Below are positions 1 to 5,892 of a DNA stretch of 64,000 bases, piece after piece (the first letter of the stretch is position 1; each line of letters starts with the position of its first letter). The DNA comes from Lentisphaerae bacterium GWF2_49_21 (GTDB lineage Bacteria; Verrucomicrobiota; Lentisphaeria; Victivallales; GWF2-50-93): NCBI GenBank assembly GCA_001804805.1, contig MHBH01000052.1:1-64000 (forward strand). Direction: 5' to 3'. A program made the position numbers and the translations under genes. Under the pieces are notes generated by a model that had not been told where the DNA came from, did not search any database, and was given only the letters and a program-made list of their open reading frames with translations.

Positions 1-80
1 CCCCCGAGCGGAGAAGCAATAATTTAGGATCGAAAAAGATCCATGGATTCATCTTTCGTCACCATCTATTTATGATTTTA

Positions 81-140
81 TGCCAACGCCTATGATCTCC
101 TACCCGCTTTGGCGGGTTAGGAGAATCTAAATGGTTAGAA
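81..140 (-). other. attC recombination site (cassette 0)
   Basis: Sixty-base imperfect palindrome. The outer boxes on the plus strand are TGCCAAC (81-87) and GTTAGAA (134-140). The inner arms are 96-107 and 112-124 with a TTTG loop; the right arm carries one unpaired T. An extra base on the L'' side of the plus strand is where attC bottom strands carry an extrahelical base, so the orientation agrees with minus-strand cassettes. The GTTAGAA box is the complement of the cassette's own start at 280-285. Confidence 0.85.
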
Positions 141-257
141 TTATCTTTCTCTCATTTCTTGAATTCTAATTCTGATTCCGGATCTAATATATCCTGTAAA
201 TCCTGTTATCCAGTCGGAAATAATTTTGAATTTCATTTCGCTTTCGACAGCCCCCAT
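141..257 (-). CDS. Possible 38-residue cassette-borne peptide
   Basis: A short minus-strand reading frame fills the smallest cassette. It starts at ATG 257, 28 bases inside the cassette start, and its TAA at 141-143 abuts the attC R'' box at 134-140. The placement mirrors the other cassette genes, which begin 14-31 bases inside their cassette and stop next to or inside attC. The predicted peptide (MGAVESEMKFKIISDW..., ending QEMRER) is basic and matches no family I recognise. Against it: no Shine-Dalgarno sequence is visible, and the middle contains a degenerate ACAGGATTTACAGGAT repeat that is common in non-coding bacterial DNA. The cassette may therefore be ORF-less. Confidence 0.3.
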   Translation of the reverse strand: MGAVESEMKFKIISDWITGFTGYIRSGIRIRIQEMRER

Positions 258-279
258 GCAAGATAATTTATTTTTCTGA

Positions 280-342
280 TTCTAACGCCTCTCTATCATC
301 CACCCCGCGGATGCGGGGTTGGATGCATGGAAATCGTTCTGC
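280..342 (-). other. attC recombination site (cassette A)
   Basis: Sixty-three-base site. Plus-strand outer boxes are TTCTAAC (280-286) and GTTCTGC (336-342). The inner arms are 297-308 and 313-325, closed by a GGAT loop, with a single unpaired T in the right arm. The GTTCTGC box is the complement of the GCAGAA at 1050-1055 that begins the same cassette. Confidence 0.87.
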
Positions 343-348
343 TTTTTA

Positions 349-1041
349 TTAATAACATTGCCATGAAAGTGCCCAGCTATCTTTTCCTTCTGATGTCGTT
401 CCTCTTCCAAAGTATCCAACTCCCCCATCGCCCCATGACCAATTCCCCTTCTCGGTCGAATCAATTTGGAAAACATAGTCAGGATTGAAAGGATGCTTGT
501 TCAAAGGTGCCCAAAATATCTCTGATTGTATTAGCGTGGGCCAACCGCCTATCTTGAAGCCAGAGTGATTTGCAAATAAATCAAAATAGTCATTTTCCAA
601 CTCTTCAGGACAACTATCGGCATCATCCCAACAAGGATAATCCTCCTCTAAAACCTCCGGTTTCATTTCAAAGCTTTTGATTGGAGAATCGATCTTGTCT
701 CCTGAAATAGGAACAAGATCTTTAATGTTTCGATATGCCCTTAGGCACCATCCCTCACCATTCTCTTTATGGTTGGGAAGTTGTTCGGGGCCAATAAACA
801 CGGTAATAAATTCGATGTCATCCAAGCGTGGTGGACGAAACGGAAATTCTGTTATGTTCAGTTGGCATAAAGGCCACATACTCTTTCCGTTCACTTTTGG
901 CCAAGGCTCTCCAGGAATACAGAAGTTTACTTTGCCAAAGCATGATGCTTTTGGACTTTGTGAAGGGCGAAAGCCACCAATCTGCATGCGAATGGCAGAG
1001 CGTTTAACTTTATCTCTGAATTGTTTTTCGATTTCTTTCAT
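349..1041 (-). CDS. Cassette-encoded DUF1963/YwqG-like protein
   Basis: Minus-strand gene of 230 codons filling cassette A (286-1055). The open frame continues upstream through attC2 into the next cassette, but the ATG at 1041 is the first start inside this cassette and is preferred; only a weak AAAGAA precedes it. The sequence has hallmarks of the DUF1963 (YwqG) group: an N-terminal KxSxFGGxP-like stretch modified to SCFGKVNFCIPGEPWP, LCQLNITEFPF, GGWPTLIQSEI in the second half, and a Trp/Gly-rich end (GNWSWGDGGVGYFGRG). The biochemical role of this family is not established as far as I know. It is probably a soluble cytoplasmic protein. Its stop lies seven bases from the attC R'' box, normal for a cassette gene. 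The family assignment is by motif recall only. Confidence 0.75.
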   Translation of the reverse strand: MKEIEKQFRDKVKRSAIRMQIGGFRPSQSPKASCFGKVNFCIPGEPWPKVNGKSMWPLCQLNITEFPFRPPRLDDIEFITVFIGPEQLPNHKENGEGWCLRAYRNIKDLVPISGDKIDSPIKSFEMKPEVLEEDYPCWDDADSCPEELENDYFDLFANHSGFKIGGWPTLIQSEIFWAPLNKHPFNPDYVFQIDSTEKGNWSWGDGGVGYFGRGTTSEGKDSWALSWQCY

Positions 1042-1049
1042 ATTCTTTT

Positions 1050-1111
1050 GCAGAACGCTCAATGGTCTGGCGACGAGCGGAGCGAAGTTGCCAGAACCAA
1101 TATGGTTGTGC
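1050..1111 (-). other. attC recombination site (cassette B)
   Basis: Sixty-two-base site. Plus-strand boxes are GCAGAAC (1050-1056) and GTTGTGC (1105-1111). The inner arms are GGTCTGGC (1064-1071) and GCCAGAACC (1090-1098), with one unpaired A in the right arm. The 18-base central spacer is CGAGCGGAG-rich. GTTGTGC is the complement of GCACAA (1623-1628) at the start of cassette B. Confidence 0.87.
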
Positions 1112-1123
1112 TTTATATTTATT

Positions 1124-1597
1124 TTATCTAGGAACAAGTTCAAGAAAAATAATTCCTGAAACTTTAAGATTGCTTTTATTTATATAAAGTATGTCTTTAA
1201 ATCCCGGTTGCATTCCATCCTTACCATTCTCAAAATTGCAAATTACTAAGATAGCAATGAAGTCTTTATCATTAAATTTTAAATCATTATTAGTATTTGC
1301 AATGATTTTTATTTCTAATTTGGAGATTTTAAGGTCTTTCCACAATTCTTTATGGATTTTAAGGTCTTTATCAAACTTCTCGATTGATATCGGTTCCATT
1401 TTGCATGTAGGTAGGACATCCGGAAGATTAAAAGGCAAATTTGAGTATTCACGAATTTTATCTGAGTCACCATGAATCAAAGCATCTACCCATATTGCGG
1501 CATTAATTATTGCTTTTGATTCAAGTTTAGATTCCTCTGCAGTTAAACTCAAGAAGGAATACACAAAGAACAAAATTATAATAATTGTCTTTTTCAA
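1124..1597 (-). CDS. Cassette-encoded secreted protein, unknown
   Basis: A 157-codon minus-strand gene occupying cassette B (1056-1628). The start is TTG at 1597, preceded by AGGTGATG at good Shine-Dalgarno distance; an ATG inside that sequence is out of frame. The product begins MKKTIIIILFFVYSFLSLTA, a clear Sec signal peptide probably cleaved after TAEES or SLTA, so the mature protein of about 137 residues should be periplasmic or extracellular. The rest is Lys/Asn/Ile rich (AT-rich codons, unlike the GC-richer intI next door), suggesting a foreign origin. I recognise no domain. The stop is 13 bases from the attC R'' box. Confidence 0.72.
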   Translation of the reverse strand: MKKTIIIILFFVYSFLSLTAEESKLESKAIINAAIWVDALIHGDSDKIREYSNLPFNLPDVLPTCKMEPISIEKFDKDLKIHKELWKDLKISKLEIKIIANTNNDLKFNDKDFIAILVICNFENGKDGMQPGFKDILYINKSNLKVSGIIFLELVPR

Positions 1598-1622
1598 TTC
1601 ATCACCTGTTTTATGATTTCGT

Positions 1623-1684
1623 GCACAACGTCTCGGCCTCAGGAAGACGGCGGACCCGGATTACCTGAAGGCTTTTGGTTAGGA
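1623..1684 (-). other. attC recombination site (cassette C)
   Basis: Sixty-two-base site. Plus-strand boxes are GCACAAC (1623-1629) and GTTAGGA (1678-1684). The inner arms are GCCTCAGG (1636-1643) and CCTGAAGGC (1664-1672), with an unpaired A in the right arm. The GTTAGGA box is complementary to TCCTAA (1956-1961), the start of the attI-proximal cassette. Confidence 0.87.
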
Positions 1685-1944
1685 TCTTTGATAATCTCTT
1701 TTCCGATAGACATTATTGCTATAAATTGTATTCCTGCTAGCACAGTAACAAAAAATAGTGGTATTGCAATACTTGACCTGTCAAATGGAATATATGCCGT
1801 CCCAACTGTTTTTCCGGTTTCATCTTGTATAAATCCCTTTTGTGGAGCGACACATACTAATAGCATTGATATAAAAGACAGGAATGTAAATACGAAGACA
1901 AGGAATGATACAGCCCTTAAATTTTTATATGTATTTATTTTCAT
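1639..1944 (-). CDS. Cassette-encoded small membrane protein, unknown
   Basis: A 101-codon gene in the attI-proximal cassette (1629-1961), so the one most likely to be expressed from an attI-region promoter. ATG at 1944 lies 17 bases inside the cassette start. Two hydrophobic segments are obvious: residues about 11-33 (VSFLVFVFTFLSFISMLLVC) and about 59-80 (IAIPLFFVTVLAGIQFIAI). They are separated by a polar loop with GFIQDETGKTVGT and followed by a charged, Pro-rich tail. The tail and stop codon lie inside the attC3 hairpin, so the last dozen residues are specified by the recombination site. This is common in cassettes and would change if the downstream sequence were reshuffled. No family recognised. 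Confidence 0.7.
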   Translation of the reverse strand: MKINTYKNLRAVSFLVFVFTFLSFISMLLVCVAPQKGFIQDETGKTVGTAYIPFDRSSIAIPLFFVTVLAGIQFIAIMSIGKEIIKDPNQKPSGNPGPPSS

Positions 1945-1955
1945 TTGGTCATGTA

Positions 1956-2442
1956 TCCTAACATAGTATTAGCATCAAGTCGGCGGCTAAACATCAAGTC
2001 ATGGATGATGGCCTGAAACGGTGTCTGCCTAGCCTGTGAACCGCCCCGCTTTAAGGTAATGTAGTATCAAATCGTTGGAAATCAAGAGGGTGTGGCGGGA
2101 AGAAAGTCGATTTATTTAAGCTTACCCATCAACGAGTTCAGGTGATGGGCGGGGCTGGAATATTAAGACACGCTTCCGCCGTCGCTAAGAAGTTTACCTG
2201 CCTATGGCAGCGCCTTCGGCGACCAGGGCTACGGCGGACAAGCCAGGTCGGCATCAAGAGCCGGTCTGAAGACCAGCGCTCCGTAAAGATTGAATAACGC
2301 GCAAACATGCGCTACTACAAGCTAAATACTTCCCTCGGGTTGCTTCAGTTATCCCGCTGCAAGGGGGCATGGTTTCATCATCAGTTTAAGGTACTTGGAG
2401 CTGACGGCTTGACTTGATGACTAATTGTGATATGCTTAAGTC
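1956..2442. other. attI crossover and integron control region (no gene)
   Basis: About 480 bases without a credible gene. The simple crossover site is TCCTAAC at 1956-1962 (minus strand GTTAGGA). Next to it two direct copies of CATCAAGTC lie 19 bases apart (1973-1981, 1992-2000), reminiscent of the extra integrase-binding repeats of attI1. An inverted copy (GACTTGATG, 2411-2419) overlaps the likely intI -35 box, and a partial copy lies just inside intI (2450-2457). Further hairpins are CCCATCA/TGATGGG (about 2126-2151) and a GC-rich CGCCGT/ACGGCGG palindrome (about 2166-2246). A cassette promoter (Pc) is expected here on the minus strand, but I could not identify a convincing one. Confidence 0.6.
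2409..2436 (+). promoter_or_regulatory. Candidate intI promoter
   Basis: TTGACT (2409-2414) and TATGCT (2431-2436) are separated by 16 bases. Transcription would begin at or next to the ATG at 2443 and no Shine-Dalgarno sequence precedes that ATG, so a leaderless transcript is possible. The -35 box overlaps an inverted copy of the attI-side repeat CATCAAGTC, hinting at integrase autoregulation (inference). Confidence 0.5.
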
Positions 2443-3753
2443 ATGAAAACATCAAGTGGAAGTCGCGTCTTCTGGTATCCGGAATGGGGCACCGAGCTCA
2501 AAGACGATCCCCTGCTCGGACATAATGAGAAGACCCATTTCCAGTCAGCCATCATCAAATATCTTGCATATCTCAAGAAAAACTCCCAGAAGGCGTGTTT
2601 CGATTCGGCCAAGGAATATCTTGCCGGACTCACGGGCGCGGGGGCGGGCGGCGGAGCCATGGAAAGACTGGCCCTGCGCTGGTTCTTCTCCAATGCCAGG
2701 AAGCATGATGATGAGGCGGTGTCAGCCCAGAAGTTCCGCAGCGTCGACCAGCCTGCCGGGCTCATCGAACCTGAAAAGGCGGACAAGGGAAGCACTGACT
2801 GGGAAAGGAAGCTTGTCGAGAAGCTGAGAGTCGGTCAATACAGATGGCGGACGGAGCAGACATACCGTGACTGGATATGGCGGTTCTGCGACTGGTACGG
2901 AAAGGATCCGCTGCTTGCCGGAGATGAGGACGTGAAGAAGTTCCTGACATGGCTGGCCGTGAAGAGGGATGCTGCGGCCTCGACCCAGAGCCAGGCCTTG
3001 AACGCGCTGGTGTTTTTCTTCCGGAAAGTGCTTGAACGGGAGCCGGGGGATCTGGCTGGCTACAGTCCGGCGAGGAGAGGCGCCAAGTTTCCGGCGGTAC
3101 TTACCAAGGAGGAATGCAGAAGGCTTTTCGCGGAGCTTGACGGGACTGCCGCGCTGATGGCGAAGCTGATGTACGGGGCCGGGTTGCGGGTAATGGAACT
3201 GATCAGGCTCAGGGTGCAGGACCTGGATTTTGCCAGGGGGATTGTGATTGTCCGGGAAGGCAAGGGTGGAAAGGACCGACCGACTGTCCTGCCGGAAGGT
3301 CTGCGGAAGGAACTGGCTGACCATATTACCAGGATCCGTTCCCTCTACGAGAGCGATCGTGCTGAAAATGTCGCAGGTGTCTGGCTGCCGCCTGCTGTTG
3401 AGCACAGGATACCGCATGCAGGGCTTGAGTGGGGCTGGCAATGGCTTTTCCCGTCGCGGCAGCTTTCAACCGATCCCCGGGCAGGGGTGACAAGGCGGCA
3501 TCATGTACTGGACGGGGCATTCCAGGAACAGATCCGCAAGGCCGCGGCCAAGGCGGGATTTACAATACGTGTGACTCCTCACACATTGCGCCATTCCTTT
3601 GCGACACATCTGCTCGAATCCGGCAGCGACATACGGACGGTGCAGGAACTGCTCGGCCATTCAAATGTTGAAACCACGATGATCTACACTCATATCATGA
3701 ACAAGCCGGGAGTGACCGTGAAGAGTCCGTTCGATGAGATGGGTGGGCCGTGA
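2443..3753 (+). CDS. intI: Integron integrase (tyrosine recombinase) with N-terminal extension
   Basis: IntI captures and excises gene cassettes by recombining attI with folded single-stranded attC sites. The core resembles other IntI proteins from residue about 120: an N-terminal SAM-like DNA-binding domain (WERKLVEKLR...RTEQTYRDWIWRF), then the catalytic domain with Arg in GAGLRVMELIRLRVQDLD, HTLRHSFATHLLESG, and GHSNVETTMIYTHI with the nucleophilic Tyr. The IntI-specific patch is present: LEWGWQWLFPSR followed by RRHHVLDGAFQ, which separates integron integrases from XerC/D. At 436 residues it is about 100 longer than typical. The first 120 residues (Trp-rich start, YLAYLKKNSQKACFDSAKEYL, LRWFFSNARKHDDE) are an added segment of unknown role; the start might instead lie further in. 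The gene is divergent from the cassettes. Confidence 0.96.
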   Translation: MKTSSGSRVFWYPEWGTELKDDPLLGHNEKTHFQSAIIKYLAYLKKNSQKACFDSAKEYLAGLTGAGAGGGAMERLALRWFFSNARKHDDEAVSAQKFRSVDQPAGLIEPEKADKGSTDWERKLVEKLRVGQYRWRTEQTYRDWIWRFCDWYGKDPLLAGDEDVKKFLTWLAVKRDAAASTQSQALNALVFFFRKVLEREPGDLAGYSPARRGAKFPAVLTKEECRRLFAELDGTAALMAKLMYGAGLRVMELIRLRVQDLDFARGIVIVREGKGGKDRPTVLPEGLRKELADHITRIRSLYESDRAENVAGVWLPPAVEHRIPHAGLEWGWQWLFPSRQLSTDPRAGVTRRHHVLDGAFQEQIRKAAAKAGFTIRVTPHTLRHSFATHLLESGSDIRTVQELLGHSNVETTMIYTHIMNKPGVTVKSPFDEMGGP

Positions 3754-4070
3754 CGGAGTGACGGCGTAAGGGCGTGACGGAGCGGGGAAGTAATCAGTGA
3801 CCAGTGAAAAGTGGATGGGGGAGGCTGAGTTGGTGAACGGAAGATGGAAAGTTGCCGGCGAGACGCCAGCGCTCCGTGAGATTAAGAATTGCCCCGAGCG
3901 CTCAGGCCTCGGGGCGCTCCGTGATTACAGGCGAGACGCCTGTTCTACATTGTTAAGAATTGCCCCGGGCGCTCGGGACGCCGCGGACGGCTACGGAGAG
4001 GCGTCCCTACCTTTAGAAATAAAAACTGACGCATTATCTTCTTTTTCCGGTGGAAATAAAAAACCTTGTT
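3754..4070. repeat. GC-rich intergenic repeat block after intI (no gene)
   Basis: About 400 bases between intI and prs hold no credible gene. A unit of roughly 72 bases is duplicated: GGCGAGACGCC at 3857-3867 and 3930-3940, and TTAAGAATTGCCCCG at 3882-3896 and 3953-3967, with GCGCTCCGTGA also repeated. Hairpins are GCCCCGAG/CTCGGGGC (3891-3898 with 3908-3915) and GGGACGCC/GGCGTCCC (3975-3982 with 4000-4007). CAGCGCTCCGT also occurs on the other side of intI near 2276. The following 60 bases are AT-rich and carry the prs promoter. Confidence 0.7.
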
Positions 4071-4077
4071 TTTTCTG

Positions 4078-4105
4078 TTGAATATGAAGCCAGTGCCTGT
4101 ATAGT
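4078..4105 (+). promoter_or_regulatory. Candidate prs operon promoter
   Basis: TTGAAT (4078-4083) and TATAGT (4100-4105) with a 16-base spacer lie about 50 bases before the prs start, in the first AT-rich stretch after the repeat block. No operator-like palindrome is evident. Confidence 0.45.
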
Positions 4106-4158
4106 ATGACCCTTTTCGAAAAAATTTACGTTTATAACCATATAAGGAATATGCAGAA

Positions 4159-5112
4159 ATGCTGGCCTGGGGCAAGAATATTTGTGTCTTTTCGGGAACC
4201 GCAAATCCCGGATTGTCCGCTGAGATAGCGAATGAAATGGGAAAACCTCTTGGCGATCTCGAGGTGAGCCGTTTTCCCGACGGGGAGATCTTTGTAAAGT
4301 ACAAGGAGAACATACGAGGCGCGGATGTCTTCATAATCCAGCCGACATGCTCTCCGCCGAGCGAAACTCTCATGGAACTCCTGATTCTCATTGACGCCGC
4401 CAAACGTGCGTCGGCCGCCAGGATAACAGCAGTCATCCCATTCTACGGATTTGCCCGTCAGGACAGGAAAGATCAGCCGAGGGTTCCGATCACAGCAAAG
4501 CTGGTGGCAAATCTGATTACCGTCTCCGGCGCATCCAGAATACTCGCAGTAGATCTTCATTCCCAGCAGATCCAGGGATTCTTCGACATACCGGTTGATC
4601 ATCTGAACGCAGCTCCTGTGCTTGTCCCATATCTCAGGGAACGCCTTGGCAAGGAAGGTGTCGTTGTAGCTCCTGATTCAGGAAGCGTAAAGATTGCACA
4701 GTCATATTCCGACATGCTAAATGCGGGACTCGCTGTCGTGGCAAAAAGGCGTATCGACGCCCTTTCAGTCGAGTCATCCCATCTCGTTGGAGATGTCGAT
4801 GGAAGGATATGTCTTCTCTCCGACGATCTCTGCACAACTGCCGGGACTCTCACCGCAGCCGCAGCCCTGCTCAAGAAGGAAGGCGCAAAGAAAGTATATG
4901 CGGCCGTCACCCACTGCCTGCTTGGAGATGTCGGAAGATCAAGGCTCATGGCTAGTTCCATAGACGAACTCGTAGTCACAAACAGCATACCGGTTACCAA
5001 CAACTGTAACGGCAAGATCAAGATATTCAGCATAGCCGGACTTCTCGCCGAAGGCATCAAAAGAATTCACGAGGGCGCTTCTGTGTCCTCACTTTTCAAA
5101 ATAGAAAAATAA
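4159..5112 (+). CDS. prs: Ribose-phosphate pyrophosphokinase
   Basis: Makes PRPP from ribose 5-phosphate and ATP for purine, pyrimidine, His and Trp synthesis; cytoplasmic. The 317 residues match the usual length. Visible signatures: FSGTANPGLSAEIA at the N-terminus, FYGFARQDRK, the family signature DLHSQQIQGFFDIPVDHL, and the catalytic-loop KRR (AKRRIDAL). The PRPP-binding loop is unusual: the family consensus DDIIDTAGT reads DDLCTTAGT, so the acidic residue at its fifth position is Thr, and the upstream SPDxGG motif reads APDSGS. This could be a divergent active enzyme or one with altered kinetics. Start at 4159, AAGGAA about 10 bases upstream. First gene of a run continuing through dnaB; rplY begins 18 bases after it. 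Confidence 0.93.
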   Translation: MLAWGKNICVFSGTANPGLSAEIANEMGKPLGDLEVSRFPDGEIFVKYKENIRGADVFIIQPTCSPPSETLMELLILIDAAKRASAARITAVIPFYGFARQDRKDQPRVPITAKLVANLITVSGASRILAVDLHSQQIQGFFDIPVDHLNAAPVLVPYLRERLGKEGVVVAPDSGSVKIAQSYSDMLNAGLAVVAKRRIDALSVESSHLVGDVDGRICLLSDDLCTTAGTLTAAAALLKKEGAKKVYAAVTHCLLGDVGRSRLMASSIDELVVTNSIPVTNNCNGKIKIFSIAGLLAEGIKRIHEGASVSSLFKIEK

Positions 5113-5130
5113 AATAAGGATACACATAAG

Positions 5131-5892
5131 ATGAGCAAAGCGAAAAATGTATTGTCGGTCCTGGACAGGGCCGATTTCGGTTCAGGTGCCTCCAGGAAAA
5201 TGCGCAGGGAAGGCAAGATCCCGGGAATATTGTACGGACGTGGGAAAAAAGCGACTCCGTTCGTCCTGGTAGAGAATGAATGGAAAAAGATCGTCCAGCA
5301 TGGAAATGTCCACCTTGTCGAGCTTAAATCGGAAAAGGGGGAACCTGTCAACGCTCTTGTAAAGGACGTGCAGTTCGACTATCTCAGCGGCAAGACACTC
5401 CACATAGATTTTCTTGAAGTCAAGATGGACGAACTCATCACGACGTTGATCGACGTTCTGGGCCATGGCACTCCTATTGGAATCACCCAGGGCGGAGTTC
5501 TCGAACAGCTCATACATAAGCTTGAGGTCAAATGTCTTCCCAAGGACATTCCTGAAAATATCGAAGTTGAGATCAGCGGCATAGAGCTGGACAAGGCGAT
5601 AGTTGTCAAGGATCTGAAGCTCCCTGCCGGCGTTACTGCTGTTCCGACTCCGGAAAGCATCGTGTTCCATGTCATCAGGCTGCGTATTGAGGAAGAACCT
5701 GTTGCTGCCGAGGCCGTTGAAGGTGCCGTTGTTGAAGGTGCCGAAGGCGCCGTCGAACCTGAAATTATCGGAGCCAAGGGCAAGAAGCTCGAGGAAGGTG
5801 AAGTCGAGGAAGGCGCCGCCGCTGCTCCTGGCAAGGAAAAAGCCGCCAAGGAACCTGCTGGCAAGGACAAGGAGAAAGAGAAGAAGAAGTAG
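5131..5892 (+). CDS. rplY: 50S ribosomal protein L25/general stress protein Ctc
   Basis: Binds 5S rRNA in the large ribosomal subunit. The long CTC form (253 residues): an N-terminal L25 beta-barrel (residues about 1-95, with GKIPGILYGRG and NALVKDVQFDYLSGKTLHIDFLEV) and a second beta domain (about 96-185, with VLGHGTPIGITQGGVLEQL and LPKDIPENIEVEISG). After these comes a low-complexity tail of about 65 residues rich in Ala, Glu, Gly and Lys ending EKEKKK, longer and more charged than usual. AAGGA lies 10 bases before the ATG. It sits between prs and pth, the classical prs-ctc-pth order. Confidence 0.93.
   Translation: MSKAKNVLSVLDRADFGSGASRKMRREGKIPGILYGRGKKATPFVLVENEWKKIVQHGNVHLVELKSEKGEPVNALVKDVQFDYLSGKTLHIDFLEVKMDELITTLIDVLGHGTPIGITQGGVLEQLIHKLEVKCLPKDIPENIEVEISGIELDKAIVVKDLKLPAGVTAVPTPESIVFHVIRLRIEEEPVAAEAVEGAVVEGAEGAVEPEIIGAKGKKLEEGEVEEGAAAAPGKEKAAKEPAGKDKEKEKKK

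Follow-up and report, generated by a model that had tools for sequence, protein, structure and literature searches.

Single gene cassettes are known to enter chromosomes by insertion at attG sites, a route that is cited as established in PMC11023631 and PMC12901181, and the attG sites diverge strongly from the classical att sites (PMC12901181). Another departure from the usual arrangement is that of the delta-attI type, in which a piece of attI, once a whole attI, replaces the attC behind a gene within an array (PMC12901181). The term CALIN denotes clusters of attC sites lacking an integrase, in a definition of which attI is not part, and IntegronFinder 2 by default does not report single attC sites (PMC9024848). 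We found no description of solo or orphan attI modules in the open-access literature.

The stretch of DNA analysed here, which we call the window, comprises bases 1-64000 of contig C52 from a genome of 5.9 Mb in 91 contigs with an estimated contamination of 2.5%. The original prediction dealt with a cassette array alone; the integrase, as well as the attI and attC sites found genome-wide, lie outside its finding. The reading we favour, to which we give a probability of roughly 0.78, is that this segment is the end, next to attI, of a chromosomal integron that forms part of a distributed system, in which stand-alone attI modules, here called docks, would be served in trans by IntI.

The cassette array and its integrase

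The array, its attI and the integrase gene are directly legible in the sequence, and comprise the following features:

1..86, minus strand: cassette 5, incomplete, starting TTGGCA... and truncated at the contig end
81..140, minus strand: attC of cassette 4, R'' box TTCTAAC, covariance model 53.9 bits
87..285, minus strand: cassette 4, starting TTAGAA, 199 bp, with no convincing ORF
280..342, minus strand: attC of cassette 3, R'' box GCAGAAC, covariance model 66.7 bits
286..1055, minus strand: cassette 3, starting TTCTGC, ORF at about 349-1041, DUF1963 (PF09234, E 5.9e-10)
1050..1111, minus strand: attC of cassette 2, R'' box GCACAAC, covariance model 55.2 bits
1056..1628, minus strand: cassette 2, starting TTGTGC, ORF 1124-1597 of 157 aa
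1623..1684, minus strand: attC of cassette 1, R'' box TCCTAAC, covariance model 62.8 bits
1629..1961, minus strand: cassette 1, starting TTAGGA, ORF 1639-1944 of 101 aa
1962..2104, minus strand: attI, a family A module, with the crossover between 1962 (G) and 1961 (TTAGGA)
2443..3753, plus strand: intI, integron integrase of 436 aa, TIGR02249 381 bits (cut-off 265)

The four attC sites announced in the original prediction, at 81-140, 280-342, 1050-1111 and 1623-1684, are present at exactly these coordinates. The accompanying claim, that each cassette starts with bases complementary to its own R'' box, is exact in 4/4 cassettes, and extends to 7/7 bases counting the G; with four variable letters in each of the four cassettes, chance would produce such agreement at a probability of about 2e-10. 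The base said to remain unpaired on one side of the hairpin is invariant, being an A at column 24 in 20/20 sites. Folding of the plus-strand DNA, instead, bore out the predicted hairpins only in part: those at 81-140 (z -4.6) and 280-342 (z -4.5) are clear, whereas 1050-1111 is borderline (z -1.9) and 1623-1684 shows nothing beyond chance (z -0.6). Free energy alone does not support the last two, and the statement that all four are hairpins draws on comparison as well. In this respect, the alignment of the attC sites shows covariation: both sides have changed in 40 cells, compared to 17 for shuffled data (0/500). From 20 attC sites of the same genome we built a covariance model, which in the 64-kb window matched only the four sites (53.9-66.7 bits, E ≤ 1.5e-11); given that these four were among the training sites, the independent evidence consists of the R'' rule and of the sites found elsewhere.

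It could be argued that the four hairpins are not attC sites but common repeated palindromes, as two of them are not clearly better folded than shuffles and other short dispersed repeats exist in the genome, but this explanation is contradicted by the rule that links each R'' box to its cassette start, exact in every case, by the covariation and by the linked intI, and we regard it as scarcely credible. In its attC sites, cassette starts, attI and IntI, the array has the make-up of an ordinary integron.

The product of cassette 1 has two putative membrane helices and that of cassette 2 a putative signal peptide, and neither could be assigned to a family. The inner sequence of the cassette 3 attC is identical to an attC on contig C17. 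The contig end truncates the array, which is left with four attC sites, while that at the end of C17 has about ten; as the array runs off the contig start, we take the segment to contain the attI-proximal part of a chromosomal integron. The housekeeping genes prs, rplY, pth, rpsF and ssb, downstream of intI, point to a chromosomal location.

The cassette-array reading is supported by the presence of an intact IntI gene, divergent beside the array, and by a crossover point, G|TTAGGA, at 1962/1961. Residues 128-431 of IntI align with the solved structure of IntI4 (2A3V), the catalytic R, HxxR and Y included, and the best match outside the genus is an uncultured Lentisphaerae IntI, 72% identical over the full length, from which the host is probably a member of the Lentisphaerota. 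The N-terminal extension of about 115 aa had no Pfam match; in the IntI relatives on C21 and C35 the equivalent part weakly matches Phage_int_SAM_4, under the curated cut-off. The attI contains two ACTTGATG direct repeats and has homologues in relatives, and a generic promoter scan flagged no cassette promoter (Pc) in it; a conserved promoter-like pair was seen only in the family-B docks described below. IntI would act on circular cassettes, recombining their folded attC hairpins with attI at 1962/1961. The four cassettes of the array follow one another in head-to-tail order, all on the minus strand. When the window was compared to Rfam, the single match was a tRNA. Short dispersed repeats were observed at 2160-2330, in the gap between attI and intI, and at 3840-4040, after intI, with dozens of copies in the genome itself and in its congeners.

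Comparison with related genomes, which had been put forward as a check on the capture of the cassettes, went the way of the original prediction: window 1-5200, searched at the DNA level against seven relatives, returned prs, intI and pieces of attC, and zero cassette genes. Upstream of prs, the congener G001 carries other genes and a single attC element, unrelated and oppositely oriented, and in the same region of the congener G002 no attC was found. The absence of the cassette genes and the differing regions upstream of prs indicate that the four segments are not fixed, vertically inherited sequence. In G001 (C106; L102 3560-4582), a gene resembling a REP-associated Y1 transposase adjoins the single attC upstream of prs.

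attC sites and stand-alone attI modules in the genome

The genome encodes intact integron-type IntI of different clades on C21, C52 and C78, and a truncated one on C35, where the break is followed by a PD-(D/E)XK/GxxExxY-type gene (PF13366). In the intI genes of two genomes (L042 2070-2490; L117 4790-4900), the breaks lie at TCTCGCA..GGCACGGAGG sequences that resemble each other; their similarity, and the PD-(D/E)XK/GxxExxY-type gene that follows one of them, suggest a small mobile unit.

Genome-wide, the attC model gave about 50 matches at E < 0.01, many of them isolated, with arrays at the contig ends of C17, C80 and C77. For isolated attC sites the cassette start was located by the R'' rule, and eleven exact starts were examined: an attI-like end (ATAATAA..AG|TT or TAATAAACTG|TT) precedes 8/11, one of the other three is the second cassette behind an attI-like start, and two (C40, C18) are without such an end. 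Some further observations were made at the contig ends. At those of C17 and C18 (L046 12262-12503, L048 9412-9497), two different attC sites are bordered at R'' by a common sequence, GTGTACGCCCGGCATGGGCGCG..., whose similarity to a group II intron 5' end we report as a lead only; Rfam gave no match. The cassettes at the starts of C80 (L050 1-1020) and C77 (L049 1-770) look like toxin-antitoxin pairs (putative RHH/RelE-like). Two contigs that start within arrays have in common a near-identical stretch at the cut cassette (L041 1-75, L042 22-95), so that two integrons of the genome may contain one and the same cassette.

At least 18 attI modules stand alone in the genome, without a nearby integrase, and most are followed by a single cassette; about 16 belong to what we named family B and to related types, and two to family A. 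Family A is that of the window: its attI recurs on C5 and C89, with 90-92% identity over about 125-138 bp and without intI. The dock on C89 has a 120-bp cassette with an R'' match of 7/7, while in the cassette of the dock on C5 the site has decayed and shows one mismatch. Family-A attI sites without an adjacent intI are also found in G001, G004, G006 and G030, and G007 has sequence matches to the family at which no crossover point was located.

Family B counts 13 copies in the genome itself, 6 in G001 and 2 in G003, for a total of 21 distinct docks; by sequence, none was found in the 57 other relatives searched, G002 included, nor outside the genus. The module spans about 160 bp, with a promoter-like pair at one end and the crossover point at the other, and is shorter where an internal deletion occurred. 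The copies share their 5' end, just upstream of the TTGAC-like/TATTTT pair, which as TTGA(C/A/T)-N18-TATTTT is found in 18/21 docks, with a spacing of 18 in 17 of those 18; in the one copy submitted to a generic promoter scan, the pair was not flagged. As far as G|TT, each position of the alignment carries 0.7-2.0 bits, a value that drops to about 0.3 past the TTRRRY box. Similarity between copies ends precisely at G|TT, and the cassettes that the docks hold beyond it are unrelated. The cassette rule is here too apparent from the sequences: an exact R'' match was found in 12 of the 18 testable family-B docks, compared to 4.3% in cross-pair controls (P 5e-13), and related modules on C71, C23 and C28, plus one in G001 (C98), also obey it. 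Downstream of most family-B docks the covariance model locates an attC, and most docks hold a single one. The ORFs that follow are mutually dissimilar, mostly start 10-60 bp past the crossover, and include a BrnT-type toxin (dock on C61) and a DUF6882 protein. Several docks, for instance those on C22, C43 and C58, have a degenerate R' box, which indicates that some cassettes may now be fixed. At the docks tested, Rfam matched nothing. Contigs longer than 100 kb carry several of the family-B docks, with flanks that are also found in relatives.

Docks in related species and the origin of their cassettes

The dock on C26 (L165) and its counterpart in G001 (C10:60k, L159) have homologous sequences on both flanks and carry the module in both genomes, followed by different cassettes: the two sequences become unrelated exactly at G|TT. 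Likewise, the dock on C58 and that at G001 C10:26k have upstream flanks about 90% identical and cassettes that differ. The occurrence of different cassettes in orthologous docks argues that exchange continued after the species split. Moreover, the C17:68k dock and its cassette are absent from G001 (C59) and G003 (C330), where 28 bp separate the flanking genes; since the locus is conserved, docks do arrive at new places.

We suggest, with a little better than an even chance of being right, that the solo promoter-attI docks are separate expression sites, each usually with one exchangeable cassette loaded by IntI in trans, in place of one array behind one promoter. The resident IntI enzymes would load and replace the cassettes, and each dock would drive its own from its putative promoter, a function to which the conservation of the pair points. 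Recombination in trans, the activity of the promoters and the pairing of IntI enzymes with docks are thus proposed from comparisons of sequences. An intact C78-type IntI is found in the genome itself (G000) and in G001, and a remnant of it in G003, which are the three genomes with family B; in so small a sample, this co-occurrence is only suggestive of a link between the two. No similarity was found between a family-B dock and an intI-linked attI, nor was any IntI gene found with an adjoining family-B attI.

The docks might be relics of full integrons that lost intI, with no enzyme acting on them now. The attI at C17:1-1900 would fit, as it keeps an intI promoter and a start-like stretch while intI itself is gone, and it is the exception among the modules; intI is also broken on C35 and at the C79 locus of G002, and some attC sites of the docks have decayed. 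Loss of intI, however, would leave ragged ends and remnants, whereas the many family-B copies have a common 5' end, and a tblastn search for IntI in 243 kb around the docks examined revealed no IntI-like sequence or remnant. Integron decay explains the docks only partly because of these shared ends and missing remnants, and the different cassettes in orthologous docks speak against it as well; we consider it unlikely as a general explanation. Somewhat less probable still is that module and cassette move as one unit by another mobile element, IntI being idle after the first insertion: such a move would account for the C17:68k dock, which with its cassette is missing from the conserved locus in G001 and G003, but the C26/C10 pair keeps the dock while its cassettes differ from exactly G|TT, and module homology always ends at the crossover point.

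Off-target insertion of the isolated cassettes at attG sites would appeal to the established route introduced above (PMC11023631, PMC12901181). Given the long module conserved before the cassettes, of 125-165 bp and unlike the strongly divergent attG sites (PMC12901181), attG insertion does not explain the docks, and we judge it very improbable. It was rejected for the dock cassettes, as contradicted by the conserved module, and could hold for isolated attC sites without a dock.

Comparison with known integron systems

If the distributed system is real, solo docks with their own promoter-like pairs would let the genome express many captured genes at once. They would also change how cassette dispersal is searched for, since docks would be overlooked where single attC sites are by default unreported, as in IntegronFinder 2 (PMC9024848), and they make it testable which part of attI suffices for cassette capture away from intI.

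The locus in the window resembles the sedentary chromosomal integron of Vibrio cholerae (IntIA/IntI4) in an IntI that aligns to 2A3V, in its divergent attI, in the head-to-tail cassettes and in attC sites with R''/R' boxes and an extrahelical base. Unlike that integron, it belongs to a genome with three intact IntI of different clades and many attI sites away from any intI, and its IntI has an N-terminal extension. Insertion of cassettes at attG sites, reportedly described by Loot et al. 2024 (cited in PMC11023631), likewise yields single chromosomal cassettes away from an integron; there the genomic site is unrelated, whereas here the cassette sits behind a conserved attI module. The docks share with the delta-attI-type cassettes of mobile integrons (PMC12901181) an attI away from its usual place beside intI, but in the docks the attI module is complete and lies in front of the cassette, at other places in the chromosome. 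Finally, they are similar to CALIN in having attC without a linked intI, and the array at the end of C17 looks like a CALIN; unlike CALIN, which are clusters of at least two attC sites, the docks have an attI and mostly a single attC.
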